64,000 nt of DNA from Gallionella sp. (GTDB taxonomy: Bacteria > Pseudomonadota > Gammaproteobacteria > Burkholderiales > Gallionellaceae). Position 1 is the first letter of the stretch. Each line of letters starts with the position of its first letter. A program made the translations under genes and the position numbers. Below the pieces are notes generated by a model. That model did not search any database and had not been told where the DNA came from. It worked only from the letters and a program-made list of their open reading frames with translations. Below are positions 12,819-43,916 of the stretch, piece after piece. The DNA lies in assembly GCA_023259035.1 (NCBI GenBank), contig JAHFRA010000014.1, positions 1-64,000 on the forward strand. Direction: 5' to 3'.

Positions 12819-15134
12819 ATGATGAGAGCAGCGCTGAACCCCCGCTTAAAGTTGGAAGTATGCGCCTTCTTCGAGGATGAATTTCGGGCGGCGCTGGCGG
12901 CTGAGAAACGCGGCGACATCGAGATCGAGCCGATACAGGGTGCCTGCGACGAGCGTCGCCGTCGTCTTGCCACCGCGGAGACGCTGCCCGCACAAAGCGA
13001 GACGCAGACGCTGTGCTTGATGGGCATCTGCTCAGGTCGGACAGCTTGCCCAGATACACCCCACTCCTGCTTTGAATTCCTGCTCGGTCCCGACAAGGTG
13101 GATGCACTTCTGGGCGAAGGCGCGCACCTGCTGACGCCCGCCATGGTGCGCGCGTACCCGGAAACGCTGCAATGCCTGAACGAACAACCGGAAAATCTCC
13201 ACGCGTATTTTGCCGAGTCTGTCCGCGCATGGGTGGTGGTGGATACCGGAGCAGCTCCACTCACTGCTGCAGAGCAGGCGGCCTTCCTGTCCGCCACTGG
13301 CGGGAAGATGGAGTTACTGTCAGCGGAACCACATCTGCTTCGCGCCAATTTGCGCGCCGCCCTCGCGCAATGGAAGGCTGACGCTATTGGCACCCGTTCC
13401 ACCGGGCAGATTGCCTCGCTCCAGCACCGCTTGGCCGATTACACCATGGCCTACGATCTGATCAGCCGCTTGATCCCCCACCAAGGGGAGCAAACTATCG
13501 TCACTGCCATTCTGGAATTATTCTACATGCTCTGCGCACCGCGTGCGGTGCATCTTCTGCTGGTTCAGGACGGGAGCAAAGATGGCGATGCCGGCACCGT
13601 AGAAGGAGCGGTGCAACATTTCTCGCAGCCCGCCGATAGCGACAGGAAAAATGAACTCAGCGAAGACCAGCTCCGCGTATTCCTGTATTGCCCGACTCCC
13701 TGGGGCGAGATCGAAGCGCCAAGAGGTTTCTATTTCCAGATACGTCAGGAGGACGCGCAGGCGTTGGGGGTCGTGGTGGTCGAGGGTGCGTTCCTGCCGG
13801 AACATCAACGCAATTATCTGGATATTGCGCACTTGCTGATGCCCATATTGCGGCTTGCCCTGCATAATGCCCGCAGCTATGACCTGCATAATGCCCGCAG
13901 CTATGAGAAGTTATGCAACACCGAGCGCGAATTGCGTGTCTCGCAGATGGAATTGGAGCGGCGGGTGGAGGAACGAACCGCCCAGTTGACGGCGGAGATC
14001 GCGGTGCGCAAACAGAGCGAGCAGGCGTTGCGCGAGGCTGAGGCGCGATTCCGCTCGTCGTTCGAAGCTGCGGCCATCGGCATGGCCCTGGTGTCTATCG
14101 AGGGATGCTTCGTTGATGCCAACCCGGCGTTGTGCCAGCTCGTCGGCTATCCTCGCGATGAGTTGACACAAAAAACCTTCCAGGAAATTACTCACCCCGA
14201 CGACCTTGATGCAGACCTGAACTACGCCAGGCAACTGATGGCTGGCGAGCGAGCCAGCTACCAGATGGAGAAGCGCTACTTCCACAAGGACGGTCATATT
14301 ATCTGGGCTTTGCTCACCGGATCGACGGTCCGGGACGCGCAGGGAAACCTGCTGTATTTTATTGCGCAGATACAGGACATCACCGAGCGCAAGCAGGCGG
14401 AAGAAGAGCTCAAGCGCTCCAACACAGAGCTGGAACAATTCAGCTACGCCGTTTCTCACGATATGCGCCAGCCGTTGCGCATGATTTCAAGCTACTTGCA
14501 ACTGATCGAGATAAGCATGTCCGATCGGCTCGACGGCGAGAAGCGCGGCTACTTCGAGTTCGCCATCGAAGGCGCCAAGCGCATCGACCAGATGCTGGTG
14601 GCCTTGCTCGAATACTCGCGGGTGGGCAGGATGGGCGAACCACCAGCTTGGGCCGAGAGCCGCGCAGCACTCGACGAGGCGCTGCAATTCCTCCAGCCAG
14701 CCATCGCCGAAGCACGGGCCAGGCTGAATATCAGCGGCGACTGGCCGCGCATTTTTGCCCGTCACGACGACATAACCAGGCTCCTCCAAAACCTGATCGG
14801 CAATGCCATCAAATACCGCGTTGCCGCGCGGATACCGGAAATCACCGTCACCAGCAAGATAGTCAGGAATGAATGGCATCTGTGTGTTGCCGACAACGGT
14901 GTCGGCATTATCCCCGACCAGATCAAACGATTGTTCAAGGTGTTCCAGCGACTGCAATCGCGCGAAGCCTACGAAGGCACCGGCATCGGTCTCGCGCTGT
15001 GCCGCAAGATTGCCGAGCATCACAAGGGGCGCATCTGGGCAGAATCGGCGGGGGAAGGGCGGGGCAGCGAGTTCCGTGCCATATTACCTGTGTTGCGGGA
15101 AGATACAATAACCGCAAGAGGAAAAATCATATGA
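12819..15134 (+). CDS. Histidine kinase 1: DUF1638-like / GAF-like / PAS / kinase module
   Basis: Sensor kinase of about 771 residues. The first ~210 residues (LEVCAFFEDEFRAALAA, DIEIEPIQGA, CFEFLLGPDKVDAL) resemble DUF1638, a domain I associate with corrinoid/methyltransferase loci. A GAF-like region (about 215-370), a coiled coil with EERTAQLTAEI, a PAS domain (about 405-525) and the kinase module follow. The module, shared by nine kinases here, has the phospho-acceptor in SHDMRQPLR (H547), an N-box NLIGNAIKYR, DNGVGI and GTGIGLALCRKIAEHHKGRI. I start it at 12819 because the frame upstream is a dispersed repeat. Location behind the corrinoid pair suggests that methyl-transfer state, or the corrinoid itself, is the input; this is inference. 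Confidence 0.87.
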   Translation: MMRAALNPRLKLEVCAFFEDEFRAALAAEKRGDIEIEPIQGACDERRRRLATAETLPAQSETQTLCLMGICSGRTACPDTPHSCFEFLLGPDKVDALLGEGAHLLTPAMVRAYPETLQCLNEQPENLHAYFAESVRAWVVVDTGAAPLTAAEQAAFLSATGGKMELLSAEPHLLRANLRAALAQWKADAIGTRSTGQIASLQHRLADYTMAYDLISRLIPHQGEQTIVTAILELFYMLCAPRAVHLLLVQDGSKDGDAGTVEGAVQHFSQPADSDRKNELSEDQLRVFLYCPTPWGEIEAPRGFYFQIRQEDAQALGVVVVEGAFLPEHQRNYLDIAHLLMPILRLALHNARSYDLHNARSYEKLCNTERELRVSQMELERRVEERTAQLTAEIAVRKQSEQALREAEARFRSSFEAAAIGMALVSIEGCFVDANPALCQLVGYPRDELTQKTFQEITHPDDLDADLNYARQLMAGERASYQMEKRYFHKDGHIIWALLTGSTVRDAQGNLLYFIAQIQDITERKQAEEELKRSNTELEQFSYAVSHDMRQPLRMISSYLQLIEISMSDRLDGEKRGYFEFAIEGAKRIDQMLVALLEYSRVGRMGEPPAWAESRAALDEALQFLQPAIAEARARLNISGDWPRIFARHDDITRLLQNLIGNAIKYRVAARIPEITVTSKIVRNEWHLCVADNGVGIIPDQIKRLFKVFQRLQSREAYEGTGIGLALCRKIAEHHKGRIWAESAGEGRGSEFRAILPVLREDTITARGKII

Positions 15135-15217
15135 ACACTGCAACTCAGCCTTTTGTTATTCTGTTGATCGAAGACGAAAAAACGGATGCCGGCCTCGTTG
15201 ACGGGAAAAATACATGA
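15131..15217 (+). pseudogene. Truncated start of a single-domain response regulator
   Basis: Twenty-eight codons from an ATG overlapping the kinase stop. The first 20 residues (MNTATQPFVILLIEDEKTDA) match the intact receiver at 43917-44381 at all but one position, then the sequence breaks into GLVDGKNT and stops. The ribosome site is retained. It is the remnant of a receiver gene whose body was replaced by the REC-LuxR gene that begins at 15214. Confidence 0.8.
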
Positions 15218-16155
15218 GTGAAAATTTCCCACGAGCGCTTTCGGTTCTGGTGATAGAGGACGATGCCGGTGATTTCGGGTTGATTCGGGTGCATGTGCAG
15301 TTGTCAGGCCTTGTGCAGGGTGGCGGCAAAGAGCCGGTGATCTGGGCGAAAACGCTGGCTGACGGCATAATCGCAGCCAGGAACAACAAGCCTGATGTCG
15401 TGCTGCTCGACTTGTCGCTCCCTGATTCTGCGGGGCTAGACACTGTGCAGGCGATGCGTGCAGCATTGCCCGGCGTGCCCATCGTGGTGTTGACGGGTCA
15501 CGACGACAATGCTCTCGCCGATGCCGCTTTACAAGCCGGCACCCAGGATTATCTGGTCAAGGGACAATTCGATCACGATGCGTTGGGTCGTGCGGTGCGT
15601 CATGCCCTGGTGCGTCATGCTCTGGAGTTGCGGCTCAAGGAAAGTGAAAAAATATTGCTTGATTCCCGCAATCATCTGAAAGAGCAAGTTGTAAAAATGA
15701 CATCCCAACTGAAAGAGCTCAGGGATGAGTTTGAAGACGTCAATACGACGCTAAAAGTTTTACTCAAGAACCGGGACACGGATAAGTCCGCTACCCAAAA
15801 TGCGCTGGTGCGCGAAATGAGCCAGGAGGTCGCGCCATTCCTGCTGAAGCTTAAAAAAAGCGTCCGGGATCGCAAGCAAATCCGCTTGCTGAGTGTTCTC
15901 GATAACAACCTGCAGCAATTAGCCTCTTCATACGGTAACACGAGTGCCTACACGTTGCTTTCATGGCAGTTGACGCCGGTCGAAATACAAGTGGCATCCA
16001 TGATCAAACAAGGCCTGTCGACCAAGGACATCGCCACGGCCTTGTCTCTCTCGCCGGAAACCATCAGTGTTCATCGGAAACATATTCGTAAAAAACTCGG
16101 ATTGAACAGCAAAGCGGTTAATCTCCGCAGCCATCTAACGTCACTGTCCGGTTGA
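15214..16155 (+). CDS. Response regulator REC-coiled coil-LuxR HTH
   Basis: DNA-binding response regulator of 313 residues. REC domain 1-140: acidic E15-D16-D17, phospho-acceptor D66 in [21 protein letters not shown] and the Lys of DYLVKGQF. A charged coiled coil (about 145-215) leads to a C-terminal LuxR/FixJ helix-turn-helix: LTPVEIQVASMIKQGLSTKD, then ATALSLSPETISVHRKHIR. The start overlaps the stop of the receiver remnant. The receiver is closely similar to those of the REC-PP2C and REC-PAS-GGDEF proteins further on, so all three may be fed by the same kinases. Probable partner of kinase 1 by position. Confidence 0.92.
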   Translation: MSENFPRALSVLVIEDDAGDFGLIRVHVQLSGLVQGGGKEPVIWAKTLADGIIAARNNKPDVVLLDLSLPDSAGLDTVQAMRAALPGVPIVVLTGHDDNALADAALQAGTQDYLVKGQFDHDALGRAVRHALVRHALELRLKESEKILLDSRNHLKEQVVKMTSQLKELRDEFEDVNTTLKVLLKNRDTDKSATQNALVREMSQEVAPFLLKLKKSVRDRKQIRLLSVLDNNLQQLASSYGNTSAYTLLSWQLTPVEIQVASMIKQGLSTKDIATALSLSPETISVHRKHIRKKLGLNSKAVNLRSHLTSLSG

Positions 16156-16205: not shown

Positions 16206-16310
16206 TACTTACCCATTCAATCACGATTTTAAACGCTTGCCCATCGCTATCACCACATTTAAGGTATGCACGGGTTTTTACGTATCGGATTTGCCTTTAT
16301 ACCTTGGCGC

Positions 16311-16397
16311 ATGAACACTGCAATTCAGCCTTTTGTCATGTTGCCAAAGGCGTATGTTCTATCAACAAACAATGGATATTTGAAGCGTGAATGTTAA
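16311..16397 (+). pseudogene. Second remnant of the single-domain receiver start
   Basis: The bases from the ATG at 16311 encode MNTAIQPFV, identical to the first nine residues of the receiver at 43917, then diverge (MLPKAYVLSTNN...) and stop at 16397, overlapping the cheX start. It is a scar of the same duplicated unit, here without a kinase directly upstream. Confidence 0.6.
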
Positions 16398-16905
16398 TTT
16401 CATCAACCCGGTTCTGGGGTCAATACTGGATGTGTTATCTACTATGGCGCATATTGAGCCGGAAGTGGGCTCTCCTAAAAGAAAAGGTAAGCACGATGTC
16501 GTGCATGGGAAAAATATTACCGGCGTAATAAGCATGGTGGGAAGAAGAGGAAATGCTTCTATCGCCTTAACTTTTTCGGAAGCCGCCATATTGCATATTG
16601 CAAAAAAAATGTTGCCTAGCGAAATTACCACGATTGACGGAATTGTTATTGACCTGGTGGGGGAGCTGGCCAATATGGTTCTCGGTGGCGCAAAAAGGGA
16701 TTTGGAAAACCGGGGCTATTCATTCCAATTATCACTGCCAACAATAATATTCGGGTGTGACTATCTGATCGCCCATAAGACAAATGCGCCCATCATCATG
16801 CTGCCATTTACTATGCCGGAGGGCGAGTTTGTTGTTGAAGCAGGATATGAAGAAGTCAACGAGTATGTATATAGCTCATCATTGCCGTCTAATCTGGCTC
16901 CATGA
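16387..16905 (+). CDS. cheX: CheX-family chemotaxis phosphatase-like protein
   Basis: Protein of 172 residues of the CheC/CheX/FliY phosphatase family, which remove phosphate from CheY-type receivers. The catalytic E-x-x-N motif is visible as E93-L-A-N96 in DLVGELANMVLGGAKRDLE, with the preceding FSEAAILHIAKKML region typical of CheX. The GTG at 16387 is the likely start; the frame holds no earlier alternative. No chemotaxis operon is present, so its substrate is more likely one of the receivers in this array, or a signalling step tied to the H-NOX gene just downstream. Confidence 0.85.
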   Translation: MNVNFINPVLGSILDVLSTMAHIEPEVGSPKRKGKHDVVHGKNITGVISMVGRRGNASIALTFSEAAILHIAKKMLPSEITTIDGIVIDLVGELANMVLGGAKRDLENRGYSFQLSLPTIIFGCDYLIAHKTNAPIIMLPFTMPEGEFVVEAGYEEVNEYVYSSSLPSNLAP

Positions 16906-17017: not shown

Positions 17018-17566
17018 ATGTATGGACTAGTGAACAAAACCTTGCAAGAGATGATCATTGACCGCTATGGGAATGCGAAATGGGAAGAGATCAGGAAAGA
17101 GTCGGAGATTGAACCCCTGTTCTTTATCGCTATGGAGTGCTACCCGGATGAAATGACGTACAAGCTCGTCGCTGGCGCCAGCAGCGTACTCGGCGTACCT
17201 GCGGATCAGCTCATACGCAGTTTTGGGGAACACTGGTTTCAGGTTGCCAAAGTGGGATACAAGGAAATACTCGATTTTGCGGGCGACAACTTTGTTGATT
17301 TCCTCAAGAACCTTGACAATATGCACACGCGAGTCGGCTTGATTTTTACCGGCTTTCGGCCACCCTCTTTCAAGTGTACGGAGGTTACCGATAGCTCTTT
17401 GCGGCTTCACTATTACTCGGAACGTGCCGGGCTAACCCCTCTGGTTGACGGGTTGTTGGTGAGCGTGGGAAAGCATTTCTCCCTGGAAGTCGATGCTGTG
17501 CTGGACAAGAGCCGGGCCGGGGGCGACGATCATGACGAATTTATCGTCCACTTCAGAAAAGCCTGA
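17018..17566 (+). CDS. H-NOX haem NO/O2-binding sensor protein
   Basis: Stand-alone H-NOX (HNOB) domain, 182 residues, the usual length. It begins MYGLVNKTLQEMI, as this family does. The likely proximal haem ligand is H103 in DNMHTRVG, the conserved Pro follows in FRPPSFKC, and the haem-propionate motif Y-x-S-x-R is Y132-Y-S134-E-R136. An AGGAGG ribosome site precedes the ATG. It overlaps the next gene, a kinase with an HNOBA domain, so gas (probably NO) binding here is very likely read out by that kinase. The distal-pocket Tyr that favours O2 binding in some H-NOX proteins cannot be assigned with confidence by eye. Confidence 0.94.
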   Translation: MYGLVNKTLQEMIIDRYGNAKWEEIRKESEIEPLFFIAMECYPDEMTYKLVAGASSVLGVPADQLIRSFGEHWFQVAKVGYKEILDFAGDNFVDFLKNLDNMHTRVGLIFTGFRPPSFKCTEVTDSSLRLHYYSERAGLTPLVDGLLVSVGKHFSLEVDAVLDKSRAGGDDHDEFIVHFRKA

Positions 17567-19247
17567 GGTGATCTTGTCGTCCGGGTTCGGCTTGGGGCCG
17601 CGTGAGTTGGACTCCGTCTTCCCTTTTCATTTCGTTATCGACAGCGATACCAGAGTCATTCGTGCCGGTCCCGCCATCCAGCGCCTGCTGCCGGATTTTG
17701 CTGGCGGCAAGAAGCTTGACAGCTTGTTCAGAATCAAGCGCCCGGCCAATTTAGTTGGGTATAGGGAGATATGCGAGCATAGTGACCAGCTATTCCTGCT
17801 TGAAGCCAGGTCATTAGACAAGCTGTTACTCAAGGGGCAGATGCTGTATCTGCCGCATGCCGATGCTATTGTTTTTATCGGCGCGCCGTGGCTCACAGAC
17901 AGTTCCGATATTGGTGCGCTGGGCCTGACCCTCAACGATTTTGCCATTCACGATTCAGTGCCGGATTATCTGCTTCTCTTGCATACGCTGAAGACCTCTC
18001 TGGGTGATGCGCAGGCGCTGGCCGAACAGTTGAATGTCATGAACAGGCAATTGGAGGGGCGGATCGAAGAGCGGACACAGGAGGTCGTTTCCGCGAACGC
18101 CACATTGAAGGAAGCCAACCACAGGTTGCTGCAAGAAATTGCCGAACGCAGGCGGGCCGAGCAGATATTGTTTGAGAGTGAAAGCCGTTTCCGCATGATG
18201 TCGGACAGCGCGCCAGTATTGATCTGGATGTCCGGGACGGACAAGCTGTGCAACTATTTCAACAAAGGCTGGCTGGATTTCACCGGACGGACGCCGGAAC
18301 AGGAAATGGGCAACGGCTGGGCAGAAGGAGTGCATCAGGAAGATTTCAAGCGTTGCCTGGATACCTACGTTTCCGCCTTCGATGCCCGCCAGGAATTCAG
18401 TATGGAATATCGGCTGCGTCGCCATGATGGGGAATATCGCTGGGTGGTGGATCATGGCGTGCCGCGTCATGACAATCATGGCATCTTCCTTGGCTATATT
18501 GGCTCTTGTGTTGACATCACCGAACGCAAGGAATTCGAAGAAGAGCTCAAGCGCTCCAACACCGAACTGGAACAATTCAGCTACGCCGTATCCCACGACA
18601 TGCGCCAGCCGCTGCGCATGATCTCGAGCTACCTGCAACTGCTCGAAAGAAGCCTGGCCGGACAACTGGACAGCGAAAAGCGCGATTACTTCAACTTCGC
18701 CATCGACGGCGCCAAGCGCATCGACCAGATGCTGGTGGCCTTGCTCGAATACTCGCGGGTAGGCAGGACGGGCGAGCCTACGGTATGGATCGAGAGCCGC
18801 GCAGTGCTCGATGAGGCACTGCAATTCATCCAGCCAGCACTGGACGAAGCACAGGCTAAATTGAGTATCAGCGGCGACTGGACGCGTATTTTTGCAAGCC
18901 ATGATGAGATACTGAGGCTCATCCAGAACCTCATTGGCAATGCCGCCAAGTACCGCGTCGCCGGGCGGATACCGGAAATCACCGTGACCAGCGGGATGGT
19001 CAAAAATGAATGGCGCTTGTGCGTCGCCGACAACGGCGTCGGCATCATCCCCGACCAGATCAAGCGGCTGTTCCAGGTGTTCCAGCGCTTGCAATCGCGC
19101 GAAGCCTACGAGGGCACCGGCATCGGCTTGGCGCTGTGCCGCAAGATCGCCGAACACCACAAGGGACGCATCTGGGCGGAATCGGCAGGCGAAGGCAAGG
19201 GCAGTAAGTTCTATGTTGCGCTGCCTGTGTCGCGGGAGAAAATATGA
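17532..19247 (+). CDS. Histidine kinase 2: HNOBA / PAS / kinase module
   Basis: Kinase of 571 residues. Residues about 20-170 are an HNOB-associated (HNOBA) domain: FPFHFVIDSDTRVIRAG, LLLKGQMLYLP, IVFIGAPWL and DFAIHDSVPDYLLLLH, as in the PAS-like domain that receives the signal from the haem domain in soluble guanylate cyclases. A coiled coil, a PAS domain (about 215-335) and the shared kinase module follow, with the acceptor His at H355 and a complete ATP-binding domain. The ATG at 17532 lies inside the end of the H-NOX gene, so translation is coupled. Together they form an apparent NO-responsive two-component input; no membrane segments are present. Confidence 0.93.
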   Translation: MTNLSSTSEKPEVILSSGFGLGPRELDSVFPFHFVIDSDTRVIRAGPAIQRLLPDFAGGKKLDSLFRIKRPANLVGYREICEHSDQLFLLEARSLDKLLLKGQMLYLPHADAIVFIGAPWLTDSSDIGALGLTLNDFAIHDSVPDYLLLLHTLKTSLGDAQALAEQLNVMNRQLEGRIEERTQEVVSANATLKEANHRLLQEIAERRRAEQILFESESRFRMMSDSAPVLIWMSGTDKLCNYFNKGWLDFTGRTPEQEMGNGWAEGVHQEDFKRCLDTYVSAFDARQEFSMEYRLRRHDGEYRWVVDHGVPRHDNHGIFLGYIGSCVDITERKEFEEELKRSNTELEQFSYAVSHDMRQPLRMISSYLQLLERSLAGQLDSEKRDYFNFAIDGAKRIDQMLVALLEYSRVGRTGEPTVWIESRAVLDEALQFIQPALDEAQAKLSISGDWTRIFASHDEILRLIQNLIGNAAKYRVAGRIPEITVTSGMVKNEWRLCVADNGVGIIPDQIKRLFQVFQRLQSREAYEGTGIGLALCRKIAEHHKGRIWAESAGEGKGSKFYVALPVSREKI

Positions 19248-20248
19248 TGCGCTACCTGATGCCATGTCGAGGCCTCGGCAAGCCGCTATCGTGGCTGGTG
19301 CTGGCCATTGGATTTGTACTCATGCTTTCCGGTTGCGGGTGGCTGGCTGACAAACCCATCTCCATCGCCTCGGTCATTTGGGTGGGCTACGAGCCAATGC
19401 GCCTGGCGCGCAACGAAGGTTGGCTGGATGTCAGGCGGGTGCATCTGGTCGAAATGGCTTCTGCCACGGATTCCTTACAAGCATTGGTCGAAGGCAAGGT
19501 GGATGGCGCTGCACTGACATTGGATGAGATGTTGAAAGCGCGCGCCAAAGGCATACCGCTATCGGCGGTCATGATCTTTGACGTCTCGGCCGGCGCCGAC
19601 ATGCTGGTTGTTCGCCCCGGCATCAAACAACTTTCCGATCTCAAAGGGCGGCGCATCGGGTTTGAACAAGGCGCCGTGGGTAGTTTAATGCTGACAAATG
19701 TGTTGTGGGCTGCAGGGCTGACCAAAGACGATGTCGAACTGGTGCCACTTACCATTAACAATCATCGCGATGCCTGGGAACGCAACCAAGTGGATGCCAT
19801 CGTTACCTACGAACCGGTAGCCAGCCAGTTGCTGGCGCAGGGGGCGAATAAGCTGTTCGATAGCCGGCAAGTTCCCAACACCATTATTGATGTGCTGGCA
19901 ATACGCAGCGATGCGCTCGACCACAGCCATGCGGCCGCTATTCGCCACCTGATTTCCGCCCACTTACAGGCGCTAGATTACCTGAGACGGAACCCGCATG
20001 ATGCCGCCTACCGCATGGCAACCCATCTGGGCTTGCCTGTGGACGATGTGTTGCCAACTTTCAAGGGGCTATTGCTGCCGGACGCCACCAACAACCGTCG
20101 CTTGTTGACAGGCTCACCGCCGCAATTACTGGACATCGCGCGCAAGGTATCTGTTTTTATGGTAAAGGAAAAACTTTTACCGCGCGACGATACGTTCATC
20201 GAGCTGATACGCGCCGATTTCTTGCCTGCTGATTACTTATTAAATTGA
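19244..20248 (+). CDS. Periplasmic binding lipoprotein, NMT1/SsuA-like, without transporter
   Basis: Substrate-binding protein of 334 residues with a lipoprotein signal peptide (LVLAIGFVLMLSGC; lipobox LSGC). The fold is of the NMT1/SsuA/NrtA kind: WVGYEPMRLARNEG near the start, ALVEGKVDGAALTLDE, LKGRRIGFEQGAVG and VDAIVTYEP. No permease or ATPase gene lies near. It overlaps kinase 2 upstream (ATGATG) and is followed within two bases by kinase 3, which has its own periplasmic binding domain. I infer a sensory rather than transport role. The ligand is unknown; family members bind small organic sulfonates, nitrate or pyrimidines. Confidence 0.87.
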   Translation: MMRYLMPCRGLGKPLSWLVLAIGFVLMLSGCGWLADKPISIASVIWVGYEPMRLARNEGWLDVRRVHLVEMASATDSLQALVEGKVDGAALTLDEMLKARAKGIPLSAVMIFDVSAGADMLVVRPGIKQLSDLKGRRIGFEQGAVGSLMLTNVLWAAGLTKDDVELVPLTINNHRDAWERNQVDAIVTYEPVASQLLAQGANKLFDSRQVPNTIIDVLAIRSDALDHSHAAAIRHLISAHLQALDYLRRNPHDAAYRMATHLGLPVDDVLPTFKGLLLPDATNNRRLLTGSPPQLLDIARKVSVFMVKEKLLPRDDTFIELIRADFLPADYLLN

Positions 20249-20250
20249 TC

Positions 20251-25589: not shown

Positions 25590-25596
25590 GGGTGAG

Positions 25597-32215: not shown

Positions 32216-33901
32216 GTGAGCGATAAATTGGACAATAAAACAGCCATACAATCCGTGCAGATGCGCCAGATGATTGCGGCAAGCAATATGTCGCTGGCTA
32301 CCAGCACACTTCTTGCCGCGATTCTTGCTTATATGCAGCGGGATGTAATCGACTTTTCTGTGGTTATTGGCTGGTTTACCCTGATTGTGTTGGTCATGCT
32401 TTCACGAGCCGCGCTCGTTATGGCTTATCACCGTACTCCAGTGGATGGCGGTGCGGCTACTCATGCACGGTTGGTGAGATTCCGTTTTGGAGTCCTGGCG
32501 GCTGGTGTGGTGTGGGGTTCGGCTGGCTTTCTGCTGTTCCCCGCCCATCATCCGCAGCATCAGATGTTCCTGATCTTTGTGGTGGCCGGTTTGACGGCGG
32601 GCGGCGTGGTGTCATATTCAGCCGATCTACTCAGTGGAATTATATTTTCCGTATCCGTTATTGTGCCGCTCGTAGCCCGCCTGTTTGTTGACGGAGACAG
32701 CATGTCTGTGGCAATGGCGATGGCGTTAATGCTGTATCTCGGATTCATGATCATGAGCCTGCGCCATATTAACCGGAATATATGCGAGAACATCACCCTG
32801 CGTCTGGAAGCAGTCGCGCGCGAGAAAATAGTGCGGGCCAATGAGGAGCGCTACCGTTTGTTGCTGGATCATTCGCCAGTTGGCATTTTTCATTATGACG
32901 CCAGCCTCGTCATTACTTATTGCAACGATCGCTTCGCCGAGATGCTGCAAAACTCAATTGAACGCATCATCGGGCTGGATATGAAACATCTCAAGGATCA
33001 GTCTTTCCTGCCAACCTTGAGACAAACCCTGAAAGGAGAGAGTGCCTATTACGAAGGTCATTATAGCGCCACCTTCAGCGATGCCAGAGGATGGACAGCC
33101 ATGACCTGTGCGCCTTTACGAGATGATAGAGGAGAAATTGCGGGGGGTATTGCCATCGTTCAGGACATCACCGAGCGCAAGGAACACGAAGAAGAGCTCC
33201 AACGCTCCAACGTTGACCTGGAGCAATTCAGCTACGCCGTATCCCACGACATGCGCCAGCCGTTGCGCATGATCTCGAGCTATTTACAACTGATTGAGAT
33301 TGGCTTGGCAGACAAACTGGACAGCGAAAAGCGCGGCTACTTCGACTCCGCCATCGAAGGCGCCAAGCGCATCGACCAGATGCTGGTGGACTTGCTCGAA
33401 TACTCGCGGGTCGGCAGGAAGGGCAAACCGTTAGACTGGATCGAGAGTCGCGCTGTGCTCGATGAGGCGCTGCAATTCCTCCAACCAGCCATTGCCGAAG
33501 CGCAGGCCAAGCTGAGCATCGCCGGTGAATGGCCGCGTATTTTGGCCAGCCACGATGAAATGCTGATGCTCCTGCAAAACCTGATCGGCAACGCCGCCAA
33601 GTACCGCATCGCCGGACAAACACCGGAAATCACTGTCACCGGCGAGATAGTCGAGAATGAATGGCACTTGAGCGTCGCAGACAATGGCGTCGGTATCATC
33701 CCCGACCAGATCAAACGGCTGTTCCAGATGTTCCAGCGCCTGCACACGCGCGCTGTCTATGAAGGCACCGGCATCGGGCTGGCGCTATGCCGCAAGATTG
33801 CCGAACACCACAAGGGGCATATCTGGGCGGAGTCGGAGGGGGAAGGCAAAGGCAGCAGGTTTTGTGTCGCGCTGCCCGTGCTGCGGAGGCGTAGGCCCTG
33901 A
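32216..33901 (+). CDS. Histidine kinase 6: six-helix membrane sensor / PAS / kinase module
   Basis: Kinase of 561 residues starting with GTG. The first ~200 residues contain about six hydrophobic helices (for instance VVIGWFTLIVLVMLSRAAL, FGVLAAGVVWGSAGFLLF, LIFVVAGLTAGGVVSYSADL, MALMLYLGFMIMSLRHI) with very short loops, an integral-membrane sensor of the MASE kind that I cannot assign to a named family. A PAS domain (about 215-330, YRLLLDHSPVGIFHYDASLV) and the shared module (H344) follow. This copy of the module is among the more divergent (RLHTRAVYEGTGIG in place of RLQSREAYEGTGIG). Confidence 0.9.
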   Translation: MSDKLDNKTAIQSVQMRQMIAASNMSLATSTLLAAILAYMQRDVIDFSVVIGWFTLIVLVMLSRAALVMAYHRTPVDGGAATHARLVRFRFGVLAAGVVWGSAGFLLFPAHHPQHQMFLIFVVAGLTAGGVVSYSADLLSGIIFSVSVIVPLVARLFVDGDSMSVAMAMALMLYLGFMIMSLRHINRNICENITLRLEAVAREKIVRANEERYRLLLDHSPVGIFHYDASLVITYCNDRFAEMLQNSIERIIGLDMKHLKDQSFLPTLRQTLKGESAYYEGHYSATFSDARGWTAMTCAPLRDDRGEIAGGIAIVQDITERKEHEEELQRSNVDLEQFSYAVSHDMRQPLRMISSYLQLIEIGLADKLDSEKRGYFDSAIEGAKRIDQMLVDLLEYSRVGRKGKPLDWIESRAVLDEALQFLQPAIAEAQAKLSIAGEWPRILASHDEMLMLLQNLIGNAAKYRIAGQTPEITVTGEIVENEWHLSVADNGVGIIPDQIKRLFQMFQRLHTRAVYEGTGIGLALCRKIAEHHKGHIWAESEGEGKGSRFCVALPVLRRRRP

Positions 33902-33957: not shown

Positions 33958-34017
33958 AAAAGTGCGTAGACAATGTCATCTTGATTGCAATTGTGCATTA
34001 ACAGAAAGAATTTGAAT

Positions 34018-36537: not shown

Positions 36538-36560
36538 ACACCGCAGCTCAACCTTTTGCC
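36534..36560 (+). pseudogene. Third remnant of the receiver start (MNTAAQPFA)
   Basis: The ATG overlapping the kinase 7 stop begins MNTAAQPFA, matching the start of the receiver at 43917, then runs in frame into unrelated residues upstream of the binding-protein gene. The true start of that gene is at 36618. This is another scar of a receiver gene that once followed the kinase. Confidence 0.65.
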
Positions 36561-36617
36561 TTAGGCTGCCCAATTGATATGGAAAAAGGTTCACACTACT
36601 CAAGGAGGGTGGATGTT

Positions 36618-37592
36618 ATGAAACGTATTTTGCTCGTATTGGGTTTGTTTCTTGGACTGTCAGTCTTGTCGCCCGTTGTTTATGCCGTAGAGCGCCTGGT
36701 TGTTGCTGACGCGCCTACCCTGTTGACCGGCCTGGTAGGCATTGCCGCAGAAAAGGGATATTTCGCCGAGCAAGGGCTGGAGGTCGAGATCAAGGATTAC
36801 AAGACTGGGGATGATGCCACGCGCGCGATGTTCGAGGGCACGGCGGATATTGCAACGGTTGCGGAAACCGCATTTGTCTTTGACAGTTTTCGGGAAAAGG
36901 ACTTCAGCCTTTTTGCCACTATCGGCAGTTGGGACAACGAGGTGAAAATCGTTGCGCGCGCCGACCGGAATATCAACAGCATTGCCGATCTGCGCGGTAA
37001 GCGCGTGGGAACCCACCCCAAGATTTCCGTGCATTACTTCCTGTCTCAGGCCCTGCTCAAATACGGTCTGACGATGCGCGATATCACGCCTGTGTTCAAG
37101 AAAGCCGGCGAATTGCCGGCGACCCTTGAAGCGGGTGAAATTGATGCGTTTTCGTTGCGCGAGCCATTCATCGGCGAAGCGTTCCAGCGGCTTAAAGGAA
37201 ACGTCAAAGTGTTTGCGGAACCGGGCTTATACTGGAAAACTTTCAGCCTGGTGGCGCGCAACAAAACACTGGCGGAGCGCCCCGATGCATTGCAGGGGTT
37301 TCTGCGCGCCCTGCGCAAGGCTGAAATACTGGTGCGAGAGCAGCCGCGAGAAGCGGCAAGCATCCTGGCGGCGCGGCTCAACAGCACACCGGATAAGATA
37401 GCGGCTGACCTGGATCAAGTGAAACTGCGTCTTGGCTTGGAGCAGCGGCTCGTTTATGTGCTGGAAAATATCGCGGCCTGGGCGCTGGATGAAAACCTCC
37501 TGACGGCAAAGGCTGTGCCGAATTACCTGCTCCTGATCGATGCGGATGCGCTGCGCAAGGTCAAACCCAATTCCGTAACAATTATTAAGTGA
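36618..37592 (+). CDS. Periplasmic binding protein, NMT1/ThiY-like, without transporter
   Basis: Exported solute-binding protein of 324 residues with a cleavable signal peptide (ILLVLGLFLGLSVLSPVVYA). NMT1/SsuA-like features: PTLLTGLVGIAAEKGYFAEQ, GLEVEIKDYKTGDD, EGTADIATVAETAF, DLRGKRVGTHPKISVHYFL and AGEIDAFSLREPFI. The start at 36618 has a strong AAGGAGG. No ABC permease or ATPase is near. It is followed four bases later by kinase 8, whose periplasmic domain has no binding fold of its own, so this protein may deliver the ligand signal to it. Not closely similar to the lipoprotein at 19244. Confidence 0.88.
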   Translation: MKRILLVLGLFLGLSVLSPVVYAVERLVVADAPTLLTGLVGIAAEKGYFAEQGLEVEIKDYKTGDDATRAMFEGTADIATVAETAFVFDSFREKDFSLFATIGSWDNEVKIVARADRNINSIADLRGKRVGTHPKISVHYFLSQALLKYGLTMRDITPVFKKAGELPATLEAGEIDAFSLREPFIGEAFQRLKGNVKVFAEPGLYWKTFSLVARNKTLAERPDALQGFLRALRKAEILVREQPREAASILAARLNSTPDKIAADLDQVKLRLGLEQRLVYVLENIAAWALDENLLTAKAVPNYLLLIDADALRKVKPNSVTIIK

Positions 37593-37596
37593 CGCC

Positions 37597-39873
37597 ATGC
37601 TCATTCGCACCCGACTGATTCTGATTGGATTGCTGCCAGTGCTGCTGCTCCTGTTGTTTATCGCGGGAATGATGGTGACTCAGCTCCAGCTTGATTCATT
37701 CAGGGAAAAGGCAACCTTCGCCAGTGACATTGAGAAAAACTTCTTCAATCTGTTCGTTGTCGCGCACGATATAAGGGAGAAAAACAGGTTTGAGCGATCC
37801 CGTCAGCAATGGCCACCCATCACGCAAGAGCTTGGGCAGCAACTACCGAAGGCCAGGGAAATGTTCTCCTCAGCCGACGAAAGCGAGCTCATCGAGACGT
37901 TGCTTGGATATTTTGAAGACAGCCAGCGTGATTTCCGTGAGTTGGAGCAGTGGCTCGATCAACACCAGGACCGGACGTTGAATACGGCGCAACAAGACTA
38001 CTTGTCCAGCTTGAGCGAACGTCTCCATATCAGCTTGCAAAGTGCGATTCCCATCGCCAACCGGATTGCCGCGATCAATCAGGAAAACGCCGAGGCTTTC
38101 GATAAAAGACGCGAGAACGTGCTGGCCTCCATACTGATTTTTATTACCGGAGTTATTCTTCTGATTCTCTGGCCGCTGACGCGCGCCCTCATGCGCTCGG
38201 TCGATCACCTGAAAACCGGCATGAATCAGGTGGCGCTCGGAGACCTTGAATTGCGCATCGCAATGACGGGTAAAGATGAATTTGCGCAACTCGCCCGGCA
38301 CTTCAATGAAATGATCTCGAAGCTCGCCGAAGTCACTGTCGCGCGCGAAACGCTGTCTGCGGAAGTGGCCGAACGCAAGCAGAAGGAAGTTGAGCTGAAA
38401 GATAGCAAAGACCGCATCGAGATGTTGCTGAATTCGGTTGCCGAAGGAATATACGGCGTTGATACGCGTGGAAATTGCACTTTCATCAATTCGGCCGGAT
38501 TGCGTTTGCTCGGTTATCAGGAAGAAGCAGAGCTGCTGGGCAAGCATATGCACGATGTGATTCATCACACGCGCGCGGATGGGTCGCACTACCCATCCGA
38601 CGAATGCCGTTTGTACCGTTGCCTGCACTCCAATGAAAGCGTTCATGTCAGCGACGAGGTGTTCTGGCACAAGGATGGCAGTTCTTTCCCTGCTGATTAT
38701 TGGTCTCGCCCGACTAAATTGAATGGCGAGGATAGCGCGGTCGTCACGTTTTTCGACATCACCGAGCGCAAACGTGCCGAAAATGAATTGTGGGAAAAGG
38801 AAGAGCGCCTGGCGCTGGCCACGCTCCAGAACGGCGTAGGCGTCTGGGACTGGAACCTGATAACCCAGGAGATGGTCTGGGACGATTCGATGTACTCGCT
38901 CTACCGTATCCGCCGCGAAGACTTCATCGGCACCGAAGAGGCATGGAGGGCGGCTTTGCACCCTGATGACCTCGAGCGCGGGGACCGGGAAGTCAACGAT
39001 GCGATCACGGGTAAAAAGCCTTTCGACACCGAGTTCCGTGTAGTCTGGCCCAACGGCGAAGTTCACCACATCAAGGCCGTGGCGAAGGTGTTCCGCGACG
39101 AGCGGGGAACCCCTTTGCGGATGCTCGGCATCAATATGGACATCACCGAGCGCAAGGAATACGAAGAAGAACTCAAGCGCTCCAACGCCGACCTGGAGCA
39201 ATTCAGCTACGCCGTGTCCCACGACATGCGCCAGCCGCTGCGCATGATCTCGAGCTACCTGCAACTGCTCGAAAGGAGCCTGGCCGGACAACTGGACGGC
39301 GAGAAGCGCGACTACTTCAACTTCGCCATCGAAGGTGCCAAGCGCATCGATCAGATGCTGGTGGAACTGCTCGAATACTCGCGCGTGGGCAGGATGGGTG
39401 AACCGCCAGCGTGGGTCGAGAGCCGCGCGGCGCTCGATGAGGCGCTGCAATTTCTCCAACCAGCCATCGCCGAAGCGCAGGCCAGGTTGGTTATCAGCGG
39501 TGAATGGCCGCGCATCCTGGCCAGCCACAACGAGGTGCAGAGGCTTATCCAGAACCTGATCGGCAACGCCGTCAAGTTCCGTGTCGCCGGGCGCGTGCCG
39601 GAAATCACCGTCACCAGCAAGGTGGTCAAGAATGTATGGCATTTGTGCGTCTCCGACAACGGCGTCGGCATCATTCCCGACCAGATCAAGCGCCTGTTCC
39701 AGGTGTTCCAGCGCTTGCAATCGCGCGAGGCCTACGAAGGCACCGGCATCGGGCTGGCGCTGTGCCGCAAGATTACCGAACATCACAAAGGGCGCATCTG
39801 GGCGGAATCGGCGGGTGAAGGTCTGGGCAGCAAGTTCTGTGTCGTGCTGCCGGTGCCGGGAGAGAAGAAATGA
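37597..39873 (+). CDS. Histidine kinase 8: periplasmic helical sensor / HAMP / 2 PAS / kinase module
   Basis: Inner-membrane kinase of 758 residues. TM1 at about 7-29 and TM2 at about 175-195 bound a mainly helical periplasmic domain of about 145 residues (EKNFFNLFVVAHDIREKNRF ... SLQSAIPIANRIAAINQENA), as in chemoreceptor-like sensors. HAMP (about 196-250), a coiled coil, two PAS units (about 265-390 with a Cys-containing insertion ECRLYRCLH, and 395-530) and the shared module (H542) follow. It starts four bases after the binding-protein gene and is very likely co-transcribed with it. Confidence 0.92.
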   Translation: MLIRTRLILIGLLPVLLLLLFIAGMMVTQLQLDSFREKATFASDIEKNFFNLFVVAHDIREKNRFERSRQQWPPITQELGQQLPKAREMFSSADESELIETLLGYFEDSQRDFRELEQWLDQHQDRTLNTAQQDYLSSLSERLHISLQSAIPIANRIAAINQENAEAFDKRRENVLASILIFITGVILLILWPLTRALMRSVDHLKTGMNQVALGDLELRIAMTGKDEFAQLARHFNEMISKLAEVTVARETLSAEVAERKQKEVELKDSKDRIEMLLNSVAEGIYGVDTRGNCTFINSAGLRLLGYQEEAELLGKHMHDVIHHTRADGSHYPSDECRLYRCLHSNESVHVSDEVFWHKDGSSFPADYWSRPTKLNGEDSAVVTFFDITERKRAENELWEKEERLALATLQNGVGVWDWNLITQEMVWDDSMYSLYRIRREDFIGTEEAWRAALHPDDLERGDREVNDAITGKKPFDTEFRVVWPNGEVHHIKAVAKVFRDERGTPLRMLGINMDITERKEYEEELKRSNADLEQFSYAVSHDMRQPLRMISSYLQLLERSLAGQLDGEKRDYFNFAIEGAKRIDQMLVELLEYSRVGRMGEPPAWVESRAALDEALQFLQPAIAEAQARLVISGEWPRILASHNEVQRLIQNLIGNAVKFRVAGRVPEITVTSKVVKNVWHLCVSDNGVGIIPDQIKRLFQVFQRLQSREAYEGTGIGLALCRKITEHHKGRIWAESAGEGLGSKFCVVLPVPGEKK

Positions 39874-39898
39874 TGCTCTTGTGGCAAATGCAAAAGTG

Positions 39899-39951
39899 CG
39901 CAGGGTGCATTTCATGCACCAATGGCAATGGTGCATGGAATGCACCCTGCG
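39899..39951. repeat. Long hairpin, 22-base arms
   Basis: Arms 39899-39920 and 39930-39951 are complementary with one mismatch, loop AATGGCAAT. Each arm contains GGTGCAT..ATGCACC, itself palindromic. No T run follows, so it is not a standard terminator; it looks like a dispersed REP-type element in the gap between kinases 8 and 9. Confidence 0.75.
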
Positions 39952-39982
39952 ATATTGCATTGCCGGAAAATTCAGAACGAAC

Positions 39983-42900
39983 ATGGAAAAGACAGATACT
40001 TCTGCACGCATGATGAACCACAGAGATAGCCTGATGTACATACTGAAGCTGCTCGGCGTGGCCGCGCTCTATGCGCTGCTGGCCAAGATCGTCCTCACTT
40101 TTTTTTCGGCCAACGGTGTCGTCAGCATTGTCTGGCCGCCGAGCGGACTGGCGCTGGCTGTGTTGCTGATCGGGGGGAAGCGGTATTTTCCGGGCGTATT
40201 CCTCGGCGCATTACTGGCAAACGCAATGACAGGACTTACCTTGGGAGTGGCCGCCAGCATTGCCATGGGCAATACTCTTGAGGCGCTTCTGGGTATCTGG
40301 CTGCTCACCCGCAACGGTAGGTTTAATTCAAACATGGGTACATTGCACGACTACCTGCGGCTGGTCGCCCTGGGCGGATTCGTTGCCTGTAGCGTCGCCG
40401 CCTTGAATGGCAGCACGACCCTTCTGGCTTCCGGGTTCATCACTACCGAAATCTATTTTCAGAACCTGCTCAATTGGTGGATGGGCGATGCGCTCGGCAT
40501 CATCCTGCTTACCCCCTTGATACTGGTCTGGCAACGGATGCCCGATAGATGGCTCGAACCAACACGGGCGGCTGAAGCCATATTGCTGCTTAGCCTGATG
40601 TTCCTGTCCAATCAAATCGTTTTTCTTGGCTGGTTTCACGACACGAGTGGAATATTTGAACAGGTAGCCCGAGGTTACTGGATGTTTCTGCTTGTCGCCT
40701 TGATAGGAGTACGTCTCGGAACCCGCGGGGTGTTGATTGCGCTGGTCATGACGGCAATTCAGGCACTGTTTGGCGCGGCTCTGGGCGTGGGCTTTTTTGC
40801 GGGTGACATTGCCAAAACCGGGCTGATCAATTACTGGTTTTACATAGTGGTTCTGTCCGTGGTCGGTATGGCGCTGGCAACTTATTTCGCCGAACGTGAA
40901 CAGATGGAAAGGGCGCTACGCCGCAGTGAGGAGGGCCTCAATCGCGCGCAAGCCGTTAGCCAAACCGGCAGTTGGTTTCTTGATATTCCCACTAGTCGGC
41001 TGGAATGGTCGGCGGAAACCTATCGCATGTTCGGTATCCCGCAGCAGCAGACTGTTGATCTGGCAACTTTCGTTGCGATCACCCACCCCGATGACCGCGA
41101 CTTTGTGCTCAATGCATGGGGCGAAGCGATGGCGGGAGCACCCTACGACATCGAGCATCGCATCATGGCCGGGGGGCGGGAGCGCTGGGTAAGGGAACGC
41201 GCCCGGATTGAACGTAATGCGGAAGGCCGTCCGCTTACCGGTATTGGTACGGTGCAGGACATCACTGAGCGCAAACAATTAGAGATGGCGCAGCGAGAGA
41301 GCGAAAAACTCTATCGCTCCCTGTTCGAAAATATGCTGAACGGATTCGCCTATTGCCAGATGATTTTCGAGCAGGATCAACCGCATGATTTCATTTATCT
41401 CAGCGTCAATGCTGCCTTCGAGACGCTGACGGGATTGAAGAATGTCGTCGGCAAAAGAGTATCCGAAGTCGTTCCGGACATACAGCAGACCGACGCCAAG
41501 CTATTCGAACTTTACGGGCGAGTATCCCTGTCCGGCAAGCCGGAACGCTTTGAAATATACCTAGAAGCCTTGCAGCAGTGGTTCTGGATATCGGTGTATA
41601 GCCCGGAAAAGGGTTACTTCGCGGTTACATTTGATGTTATCACCGAGCGCAAGCAGGCAGAAGAAAAACTGCGTGCGAGCGAACAGAAATTTATGCGGCT
41701 TTTTATGGAGATTCCCATTCCGTTGGGTGTTGCCAACAAAGACGGTGTCATCGCTTACTTTAACAATAAATTTACCGAGGTCTTCGGCTATACCACCAGC
41801 GACGTACCGACGCTGAATGAATGGTGGCTAAAGGCCTACCCGGATGAAACTTACCGTCGCTGGGTTATGGATAACTGGAACGATGCGGTAGCTAAAGCGG
41901 CAAAGGAAGGAGCGAATGTTGAATCTGCCGAATACCGCGTGACCTGCAAGAATGGCGCGGGGCGCATTGTCATCATTGGCGGGAGCCCCGTTGAAGGGGG
42001 TGTTCTTGCGATATTTAATGACATCACCGAGCGCAAGGCGGCAGAGCAGGCATTGCAACAATCCAAAGATCGCCTCGCGCTTGCCCTTAAAGGATCAAGC
42101 GATGCCCCTTGGGACTGGGATATAGAACGGGACCAAATGTACTACTCGCCGCAATGGTGGCACATGCTCGGTTATGCGGTGGATGAGTTGCCGAACGACG
42201 CCGGGCTTTGGTTGCGGCTTGAGCATCCCGACGATATCGCCACGACCGGGCAGGCATTGACCGATGCCCTGCAAAATGCGCAGGAAAGTTTCGCAGTCGA
42301 ATCACGTTTGCGTCACAAGGATGGCCACTATGTTTCCGTCCTTACGCGTGGTTTTATCATGCGCAACGAATCCGGCAAACCGCTACGCGCGACTGGCACC
42401 AATATGGATTTGACAGAACGCAAGCAGTCAGAGGAGGCTTTGCGTGAAAGCGAGAACCGTTACAGACTTCTTGTCGAGTCCTCGCCGTTCTGCATTCATG
42501 AGATTGACCTGGAAGGGCGCTTGCTATCCATGAACAGGGCAGGGCTTAACATGCTCGGCCTGGATGATGCCAGGAAAATCTGTGGCATGCAGTATCTTAG
42601 TATGGTAAGCCTGCAAGATGCCGGGCGCGTTGGAGCGCTCTTGCGGGATGCCATCACTAACGGGATCCCAAGTTATTTTGAATTTTCCGCTGCCGGGGAT
42701 GTACCGCTGTATTTCAAGTCATGCTTTATCCCGATCAAAGACGCCAGCGGCAAGGTGCTAAAGTTGATGGGGATAACCGAAGATATCACGGAGCGCGAGC
42801 AGGCAGAAAAAGAGCTGCGGGAGAAAACCCAGCTTCTCGACAGTATCGTCGAGAACATCCCGAATATGATTTTCCTCAAGCGTGCATCGGACCTCCGTTT

Positions 42901-43906
42901 TGCATTATTCAACCGTGCCGGTGAAGCGCTGGTAGGCCATAGCCGCGATGAGCTTCTGGGGCGCAACGATTACGACTTTTTCCCAAAGGAGCAGGCGGAT
43001 TTCTTTACCGGCAAGGACCGTGCGACGCTGGAACAGGACGGCATAGTGGACATAGCGGAAGAACCGATCGAGACCCCTCACGGAACCCGCATCCTGCATA
43101 CAAGAAAACTGGCACTCAGGGATGAGCAGGGCCAGCCCCAGTACCTGCTGGGCATTTCGGAGGACATCACCGAGCGCAAGGAACACGAGGAAGAACTCAA
43201 GCGCTCTAACGCCGACCTGGAACAATTCAGCTACGCCGTGTCCCACGACATGCGCCAGCCGTTGCGCGTGATCTCGAGCTATTTGCAACTACTCGAGATG
43301 GGCTTGGCCGACCAACTTGACGGCGAGAAACGCAACTATTTCAACTTCGCCATCGAAGGCGCCAAGCGCATCGACCAGATGCTGGTGGAATTACTCGAAT
43401 ACTCGCGCGTCGGCAGGATGGGCGAACCGCCAGCCTGGATCGAGAGCCGCGCAGCACTCGATGAGGCGCTGCAATTTCTCCAGCCAGCGCTAATCGAAGC
43501 ACAGGCCAAACTGAACATCGCAGGAGACTGGCCGCGCATCCTGACCAGCCACGACGAGATACTCAGACTGCTGCAAAACCTGATCGGCAATGCCGCCAAG
43601 TTCCGTGTTGCCGGGCGCACACCGGAAATAACCGTTACCAGCGAGGTGGTCCAAAATGAATGGCGCCTGTGCATCGCCGACAACGGCGTCGGCATTATCC
43701 CCGACCAGATCAAGCGGCTGTTCCAGGTGTTCCAGCGCTTACAGTCGCGCGAAGCCTACGAAGGCACCGGCATCGGGCTGGCGCTGTGCCGCAAGATAGC
43801 CGAACACCACAAGGGGCGCATCTGGGTGGAATCGGCGGGTGAAGGACAGGGCAGCAAGTTTTATGTCGTGCTGCCTGTTTCGCAGATGAAGACAACATTG
43901 CAATAG
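39983..43906 (+). CDS. Histidine kinase 9: MASE1 / 6 PAS / kinase module
   Basis: Largest kinase of the array, about 1307 residues. The N-terminal ~300 residues are a MASE1 integral-membrane sensor (IVWPPSGLALAVLLIGGKRY, PGVFLGALLANAMTGL, NWWMGDALGIILLTPLILVW, GVRLGTRGVLIALVMTAIQA). Six PAS units follow, each closed by a D-I-T-E-R-K-like linker, then the shared module (H1088). The fifth PAS is nearly the same as the last PAS of the cyclase at 7924-10788, and the sixth nearly the same as the third PAS of kinase 3. The start is the ATG at 39983, with ATG 40010 as an alternative; the open frame further upstream is kinase 8 sequence in another frame. It is followed by an intact single-domain receiver, probably the ancestral arrangement. 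Confidence 0.93.
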   Translation: MEKTDTSARMMNHRDSLMYILKLLGVAALYALLAKIVLTFFSANGVVSIVWPPSGLALAVLLIGGKRYFPGVFLGALLANAMTGLTLGVAASIAMGNTLEALLGIWLLTRNGRFNSNMGTLHDYLRLVALGGFVACSVAALNGSTTLLASGFITTEIYFQNLLNWWMGDALGIILLTPLILVWQRMPDRWLEPTRAAEAILLLSLMFLSNQIVFLGWFHDTSGIFEQVARGYWMFLLVALIGVRLGTRGVLIALVMTAIQALFGAALGVGFFAGDIAKTGLINYWFYIVVLSVVGMALATYFAEREQMERALRRSEEGLNRAQAVSQTGSWFLDIPTSRLEWSAETYRMFGIPQQQTVDLATFVAITHPDDRDFVLNAWGEAMAGAPYDIEHRIMAGGRERWVRERARIERNAEGRPLTGIGTVQDITERKQLEMAQRESEKLYRSLFENMLNGFAYCQMIFEQDQPHDFIYLSVNAAFETLTGLKNVVGKRVSEVVPDIQQTDAKLFELYGRVSLSGKPERFEIYLEALQQWFWISVYSPEKGYFAVTFDVITERKQAEEKLRASEQKFMRLFMEIPIPLGVANKDGVIAYFNNKFTEVFGYTTSDVPTLNEWWLKAYPDETYRRWVMDNWNDAVAKAAKEGANVESAEYRVTCKNGAGRIVIIGGSPVEGGVLAIFNDITERKAAEQALQQSKDRLALALKGSSDAPWDWDIERDQMYYSPQWWHMLGYAVDELPNDAGLWLRLEHPDDIATTGQALTDALQNAQESFAVESRLRHKDGHYVSVLTRGFIMRNESGKPLRATGTNMDLTERKQSEEALRESENRYRLLVESSPFCIHEIDLEGRLLSMNRAGLNMLGLDDARKICGMQYLSMVSLQDAGRVGALLRDAITNGIPSYFEFSAAGDVPLYFKSCFIPIKDASGKVLKLMGITEDITEREQAEKELREKTQLLDSIVENIPNMIFLKRASDLRFALFNRAGEALVGHSRDELLGRNDYDFFPKEQADFFTGKDRATLEQDGIVDIAEEPIETPHGTRILHTRKLALRDEQGQPQYLLGISEDITERKEHEEELKRSNADLEQFSYAVSHDMRQPLRVISSYLQLLEMGLADQLDGEKRNYFNFAIEGAKRIDQMLVELLEYSRVGRMGEPPAWIESRAALDEALQFLQPALIEAQAKLNIAGDWPRILTSHDEILRLLQNLIGNAAKFRVAGRTPEITVTSEVVQNEWRLCIADNGVGIIPDQIKRLFQVFQRLQSREAYEGTGIGLALCRKIAEHHKGRIWVESAGEGQGSKFYVVLPVSQMKTTLQ

Positions 43907-43916
43907 GAGAAGCCGC

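Follow-up and report, generated by a model that had tools for sequence, protein, structure and literature searches.

Nine tandem histidine kinases with one shared core and unrelated sensors in a Gallionella genome: a candidate many-input signalling hub

Histidine kinases that join related cores to different input domains are widespread, but how one input comes to replace another is mostly a guess that rests on comparisons over large distances. The relevant part of PMC4603909 describes the lineage-specific expansion of kinases together with the shuffling of their input domains; it calls domain shuffling rare, and considers it less probable that proteins exchange domains directly than that one domain is lost and another gained. 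Networks in which several kinases with different sensors act on one regulator are likewise described in excerpts on GacS/GacA (PMC8175716, PMC5992135) and on KinA-E of B. subtilis, which act on Spo0A (PMC8749435). Here, we have analysed a stretch of 64,000 nucleotides (nt) of a Gallionella sp. genome (contig JAHFRA010000014.1, positions 1 to 64,000), which we refer to as “the window” and which contains a tandem array of nine histidine kinases, W1 to W9, located at 12726-43906, all on the + strand and all in open frames; as in the described expansions, paralogous cores carry different inputs, and the convergence known from the multikinase networks is, for this array, an expectation only. The kinases of the GacS/GacA and KinA-E networks are mostly scattered and diverged. 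Pairs of H-NOX proteins and HNOBA kinases are also of a known kind, and the array likewise has an HNOB gene beside the HNOBA kinase W2. The contig that contains the window is 73.5 kb long and belongs to a draft genome (2.88 Mb, 68 contigs) that is 93.65% complete with 4.94% contamination.

In our view, this is more likely than not a signalling hub with many inputs that has been built by recombination, and whose receivers are now fewer than its kinases. Found together in this one locus are an exact-edged core, apparent conversion tracts, PAS cassettes that seem to have moved, mosaic counterparts in related genomes and putative remnants of lost receivers.

The shared kinase core and its sensors

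The nine kinases are listed below; the core, of about 245 residues, starts at DITERK, at the end of the last PAS domain (the first coordinate of each core interval), and ends at the stop codon of each gene.

12726..15134, + strand: W1 kinase; N-terminus without family, PAS, core 14376-15134
17493..19247, + strand: W2 kinase; HNOBA, PAS, core 18513-19247
20245..23577, + strand: W3 kinase; phosphonate-binding domain, PAS domains, core 22816-23577
26296..28167, + strand: W4 kinase; CHASE8-HAMP-PAS, core 27409-28167
29506..32133, + strand: W5 kinase; SBP_bac_3, weak GAF and PAS, core 31399-32133
32216..33901, + strand: W6 kinase; N-terminus without family, PAS, core 33164-33901
33985..36537, + strand: W7 kinase; HDOD-REC-PAS, core 35779-36537
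37597..39873, + strand: W8 kinase; HAMP-PAS-PAS, core 39139-39873
39581..43906, + strand: W9 kinase; MASE1, PAS domains, core 43163-43906; longest open reading frame, the real start probably lying after the W8 stop

An earlier reading of the DNA letters alone (the sequence-only reading) had proposed nine kinases with a near-identical C-terminal core; all nine exist, several of their starts differing from that proposal by the choice of start codon only, and the likeness of the cores is confirmed throughout, with pairwise identities (ungapped, counted from EQFSY on) of 77-94% for protein and 80-93% for DNA. The edges of the core are abrupt: when the 36 pairs are averaged in bins of 30 nt, DNA identity stands at 27-34% upstream of the core, 81% at its start, 73-96% inside it and 43% after the stop codon, then about 25-30%. 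Chance similarity is ruled out by these sharp edges, together with an identity far above that of the flanks. HisKA, with the phospho-acceptor histidine, and HATPase_c score above the Pfam curated cut-offs in 9/9 kinases; the catalytic residues (His, N-box and G-box columns) are invariant across the nine cores, and other core columns vary. In the helix of the phospho-acceptor histidine, 24/29 columns are invariant, as are 24/32 in the second helix. These helices determine the choice of the phosphotransfer partner.

The joining of this one core to unrelated sensors within a single locus, also proposed by the sequence-only reading, is supported both by Pfam and by the drop of identity before the core in the alignment. 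Pfam matches each of the inputs named as HNOBA, phosphonate-binding (PhnD), CHASE8/HAMP, HDOD-REC, HAMP/PAS and MASE1; of the SBP3/GAF input given to the fifth kinase, SBP_bac_3 stands and GAF does not reach its curated cut-off (17.1 vs 22.4 bits). The “DUF1638-like” input of the first kinase has not been recovered, with no Pfam match at E<=1 for residues 1-401 of W1 and no PDB sequence match, and the N-terminal 202 residues of W6, the input read as 6-TM, are also without a Pfam match at E<=1.

When the genome is searched with the W4 core, 32 matches are obtained: the nine cores, at 78-100% identity, and 23 others at no more than 40%, 18 of which have entered an 82-row tree (two had no locus and three failed the length filter). 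The clustering of the cores, on which the sequence-only reading had let its single module depend, is recovered in this tree, where the nine are split from the 18 other kinases of the genome with support 100/99. As one exclusive family, or an exclusive clade, the nine are rejected: they sit in a 26-row group without internal resolution, and cores of other Gallionellaceae (from the genomes G016, G017, G112, G104, G107, G110 and others) and of a Mariprofundus metagenome-assembled genome (MAG) fall among them.

The core family is thus wider than the window. A core match at E<=1e-60 is present in 5 genomes (own included) of a first set of 61, and one at E<=1e-85 in 15/158 genomes of the family (own included), i.e. 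in 14/157 others, none of which has more than four cores among the matches listed (up to 17 candidates scored per genome); in a wider draw of the order, 9/399 genomes (own included) have the core among the matches listed (up to six candidates per genome). The nine-core array is the largest among the matches listed, array sizes in draft relatives being a lower bound, as one G016 contig starts and stops inside cores. The closest named records with the core are MAGs of Gallionella and other Nitrosomonadales, one Pseudomonadales MAG and the Mariprofundus MAG. The last of these has, in addition to the same core, receiver-HDOD-like and receiver-PAS-GGDEF genes (domain names in relatives have been assigned by blastp to the window proteins, not by Pfam), and the position of its core among those of Gallionellaceae suggests either transfer between iron oxidisers or contamination.

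Conversion tracts, mosaic counterparts and mobile cassettes

Tracts that point to gene conversion between cores are seen in the sequences of at least two pairs. The cores of W3 and W4 differ at 39/705 sites, with zero differences between core nt 140 and 468 (327 identical nt) and about 10% difference outside this tract; with 36 pairs examined, their run of 131 concordant polymorphic columns has been reached in 0/2000 permutations, as has the 90-nt tract of W2/W5. When third positions only are considered, the W3/W4 run is again never reached, and W2/W5 stands at 0.036 after correction; a W3/W7 tract is borderline (0.054 corrected), and the remaining core pairs have no significant tract after correction for 36 pairs.

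The comparison with counterparts in related genomes suggests that sensors and cores have separate histories. Between W2 and its G016 counterpart, the sensor is 94% and the core 85% identical in nucleotides, and fourfold-site differences amount to 7/87 in the sensor and 19/91 in the core (Fisher p=0.019), a mosaic result that we regard as modest. W4 and its counterparts in G104/G107 agree at 82/72% in the stretch that precedes the core, and at 61/62% in the core; the W4 locus and G104 have TonB (83% protein identity) and YfiR (72%) neighbours in common, the W4 core is 93-94% identical to that of W3, and in the tree the cores of G104 and G107 pair with each other, apart from the group. Either the core or the PAS stretch may have been exchanged; core exchange is favoured because of the tree placement. 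In two further counterparts it is the stretch before the core that is dissimilar: for W3-G107 it has 34% identity against 75% over the remaining sensor, and for W5-G112 30% against 82%. The nearest tree-set rows of W3 and W4 are window cores, at 93-94%; for W2, the preference for window cores is only slight.

Segments other than the core have also been reused, as is seen in two PAS cassettes:

22078..22476, + strand: PAS cassette in W3; its 399 nt match 42782-43180 in W9 at 93.7%
38755..39155, + strand: PAS cassette in W8 (its last PAS), 91% identical over about 402 nt to a PAS domain of the array on contig C50

Contig C50 of the same genome (locus L165, G000:C50:97000-116500) carries a second tandem array, of five neighbouring kinases with a different core; their cores are 54-80% identical, three of them at 80-83% DNA identity, and their sensors are a weak dCache (below cut-off), HAMP, CHASE3, Tll0287/PAS and GAF. 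Since the 91% match between the W8 and C50 PAS domains drops to 20-42% identity immediately outside the cassette, a PAS cassette appears to have moved between kinases with dissimilar cores. At the identity reached by the best relatives of the PAS and GGDEF segments at other sites of the genome (79-83%), matches to the core and to the shared receiver have been found in this locus only, bar a 60-nt piece on C50. Within L165, a 680-nt direct repeat of 97.6% identity (L165:2834-3513 and 16597-17276) covers the ends of the first and last C50 kinase genes and extends beyond them, apparently through recent conversion or duplication.

Upstream of the array, 7690-10788 encodes a GGDEF protein that is rich in PAS domains and matches HTH_8 close to the start; one of its PAS domains is 84% DNA-identical to a W9 segment, and its GGDEF domain 82% to that of the regulator at 46843.

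Receivers, receiver remnants and neighbouring genes

The receivers of the array and the genes next to them are the following:

15214..16155, + strand: response regulator, shared receiver with LuxR-type DNA-binding domain
43917..44381, + strand: single-domain receiver, the only full-length copy of its type seen in the array
44378..45553, + strand: response regulator, shared receiver with SpoIIE-type phosphatase
45606..46889, + strand: DUF3391-HD-GYP protein, putative cyclic di-GMP (c-di-GMP) phosphodiesterase
46843..48336, + strand: response regulator, shared receiver with PAS and GGDEF diguanylate cyclase
16387..16905, + strand: CheX-type phosphatase of CheY-like receivers, with the motif D-x3-E-x2-N-x21-P, which we take to be the CheX catalytic motif

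The regulators at 15214, 44378 and 46843 have in common a receiver of about 140 residues, with 76-80% DNA identity and an abrupt end before the output domains; the CheX motif and what we take to be the receiver Asp, GGDEF and HD-GYP motifs are intact. In a receiver tree (quick method, 35 rows), no supported set contains any of these three window receivers, and the SpoIIE-type and GGDEF-type receivers tend to group with their own type in other genomes; because of this grouping by type across genomes, we make no claim of conversion among the receivers.

Three short stretches resemble the start of receiver gene 43917:

15131..15190, + strand: remnant 1, about the first 60 nt, its ATGA overlapping the W1 stop; score 53.5, 0/500 shuffles
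16308..16339, + strand: remnant 2 (start at 16311), 31/32 nt; 0/500 shuffles as high
36534..36558, + strand: remnant 3, overlapping the W7 stop, with the same junction as at W1

Behind the cores of W2-W6 and W8, the alignment test shows no remnant of the 43917 start. Intact units of core and receiver occur in relatives: in G017, two such units match each other, with one 1176-nt stretch at 79%. Beside cores of relatives there is also a set of output genes similar to that of the array, the order in G017 being kinase, receiver, receiver-LuxR, kinase, kinase, receiver with HDOD-like part, receiver-SpoIIE, receiver-PAS-GGDEF. Among 41 distinct core loci of relatives (score of at least 300 bits; one too short to test), a 43917-type receiver (at least 45% identity) is located up to 1.5 kb downstream of 18/40 testable cores, and within 240 nt in 16 of these.

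The remaining genes of the array lie between the kinases:

17018..17566, + strand: H-NOX (HNOB) haem-NO sensor protein (Pfam)
19244..20248, + strand: NMT1-type substrate-binding protein, overlapping W2 and W3 by 4 nt each
23313..25589, + strand: TonB-dependent receptor; longest open reading frame, real start probably after the W3 stop
25577..26299, + strand: YfiR-like protein
28164..29420, + strand: porin-like outer membrane protein, Pfam match below the curated cut-off
36276..37592, + strand: NMT1-type substrate-binding protein; longest open reading frame, real start probably after the W7 stop

It is possible that the whole array is a single long operon: in 28900-48500, promoter-like sites are not in excess (10 vs a shuffle mean of 13.4), terminator-like sites are somewhat above shuffles (28 vs a mean of 21.2), and none of those on the + strand falls between genes of this interval. 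An open frame of 723 amino acids antisense to W8 (37870-40041, - strand) is probably a composition artefact. Directly upstream of W1, 10921-12655 encodes a protein that binds corrinoid and, with a score below the NCBIfam cut-off, a URO-D protein like MtaA/CmuA, and W1 may sense corrinoid or methyl-transfer status.

Origin of the array and its relation to known systems

According to the explanation that we favour, an ancestral pair of a kinase core and a single-domain receiver of the 43917 type, to which the remnants and the related locus point, would have been duplicated in tandem; the cores, as the sequence shows, have come to stand behind unrelated sensors, with core, PAS, receiver and GGDEF segments reused as sharp-edged cassettes; sensor and PAS would be exchanged through recombination near the PAS-core junction, and conversion would keep parts of the cores alike. 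Most of the duplicated receivers would then have been lost, leaving truncated starts behind, so that several kinases may now use receiver 43917, the one that is left, and perhaps also its three sisters, through which the LuxR-type regulator, the SpoIIE-type phosphatase and the diguanylate cyclase would be driven; CheX (16387) would reset the single-domain receiver. Shared phosphotransfer to 43917, and perhaps to its sisters, is likely because of the near-invariant helices, which together with the receiver remnants and the neighbouring genes are consistent with a many-to-one network. The pooled cues could comprise NO (H-NOX), periplasmic ligands (two NMT1 proteins, the phosphonate-binding domain and SBP3), a TonB/YfiR envelope signal and others, converging on c-di-GMP, partner-switching and transcriptional outputs. 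The “one output module repeatedly fused to new sensors” of the sequence-only reading is retained as regards the shared core and its joins to sensors; it understates the locus, where receivers, PAS and GGDEF domains are reused cassettes as well, and which is better described by kinase-receiver duplication, conversion, cassette exchange and remnants.

Several observations weigh against this explanation. The mean identity within the window (83.9%) is barely above that to G016 (82.9%) and to G017 (82.1%), because of which we regard the homogenisation of the cores as partial; W1 and W6 are the most diverged cores, relatives' cores fall among the nine in the tree, and the W2 core is 85.7% identical to three window cores and 84% to the core of its counterpart, a slight gap. 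The core-swap reading is weakened because the HNOB gene beside W2, 93% identical to that of G016, differs at 12/71 fourfold sites (0.17, near the 0.21 of the core), and because the W4 sensor proper is only 42% identical in the G104/G107 pairs. The 327-nt tract of W3/W4 exceeds short-read length, and local misassembly of these two genes is possible. As regards the receivers, the W7 remnant is weak by itself (39/500 shuffles as high), the remnant search pattern was written after the copies had been seen, which makes its zero chance expectation partly circular, and 22/40 testable cores of relatives have no 43917-type receiver downstream, some of them with less than 1.5 kb of sequence. The PAS and GGDEF segments have relatives at other sites of the genome too, at 79-83% at best.

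Some of these points would be expected if the array had arisen by ordinary tandem duplication and input-domain replacement, with little or no ongoing conversion, the likeness of the cores being due to recency and constraint; the part of PMC4603909 concerned treats duplication accompanied by fast shuffling of inputs as accepted, the cores of the window resemble one another little more than they do those of G016 and G017, and divergence at fourfold sites is nearly as high in the HNOB gene next to W2 as in the core. We regard this explanation as unlikely, if well short of negligible, as it is opposed by the mosaic tracts in W3/W4 and W2/W5, by a W2 sensor that is closer to G016 than the core is, and by the receiver-start remnants. 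Paralogous two-component systems are as a rule insulated from one another, and small changes of the core, spatial separation or the kinase-phosphatase balance could give each kinase of the array a private partner and no shared output; the core does have variable columns, and the receivers considered are those of the array in a genome that has others. The invariance of the two helices, the one full-length 43917-type receiver seen behind nine cores, and conversion tracts that hold core parts identical make such privacy improbable.

That the cores look alike, or are joined to the wrong sensors, as reads of related kinases were merged in assembly is very improbable indeed: the genome is a draft, and the G016 contig that starts and stops inside cores indicates that assemblers stumble there, but no two cores differ at fewer than 37/705 sites, kinases that correspond to W2, W3, W5 and W7 and end in this kind of core are present in other MAGs, and in G017, a separate genome of the same genus, the output genes come in the order seen here, together with a three-core array. 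Returning to the recombination-built hub, we add a more speculative idea, which we think unlikely to hold: since the dimerising helices are nearly identical and core parts are kept identical by conversion, mixed dimers may form between kinases whose sensors differ, which would make the array a combinatorial detector with up to 36 mixed pairs. If this were true, two signals at a time would be read jointly before they reach the common outputs (c-di-GMP, phosphatase and transcription), and new sensors could be plugged in by recombination, with no need for rewiring.

The array suggests how a network with many inputs could arise from pairs of one kinase and its private receiver, namely by the loss of receivers. 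In this relative of iron-oxidising bacteria, the rewiring of bacterial sensing could thus be studied. In the family, the excerpted paper on Gallionella ES-2 and Sideroxydans ES-1 counts 47 and 37 kinase genes, and the terms “histidine” and “two-component” are absent from the main text of a Gallionellaceae pangenome paper. The statement of the sequence-only reading that no such system had been described is too broad for kinase expansion with input shuffling and for many-kinase networks, both of which are known; it may stand for a tandem kinase array with conversion marks, of which searches of an open-licence library have listed no description, and which appears to be what is new here.

Compared with the lineage-specific expansions, as far as the cited part of PMC4603909 describes them, the copies here are in tandem and bear apparent conversion tracts and receiver-gene remnants. 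The N-terminal part of W4 and its YfiR-like neighbour match nearly the whole models of the YfiR-associated kinases (NF053592, NF053591), with scores that stay just below the curated NCBIfam cut-offs (176.6 vs 194 bits for NF053592; 117.1 vs 125), and W2, otherwise of the H-NOX/HNOBA kind, ends in the array core. In contrast to the multikinase networks, the kinases of the array are adjacent, have near-identical cores and end without a receiver, and their shared output is predicted from sequence.

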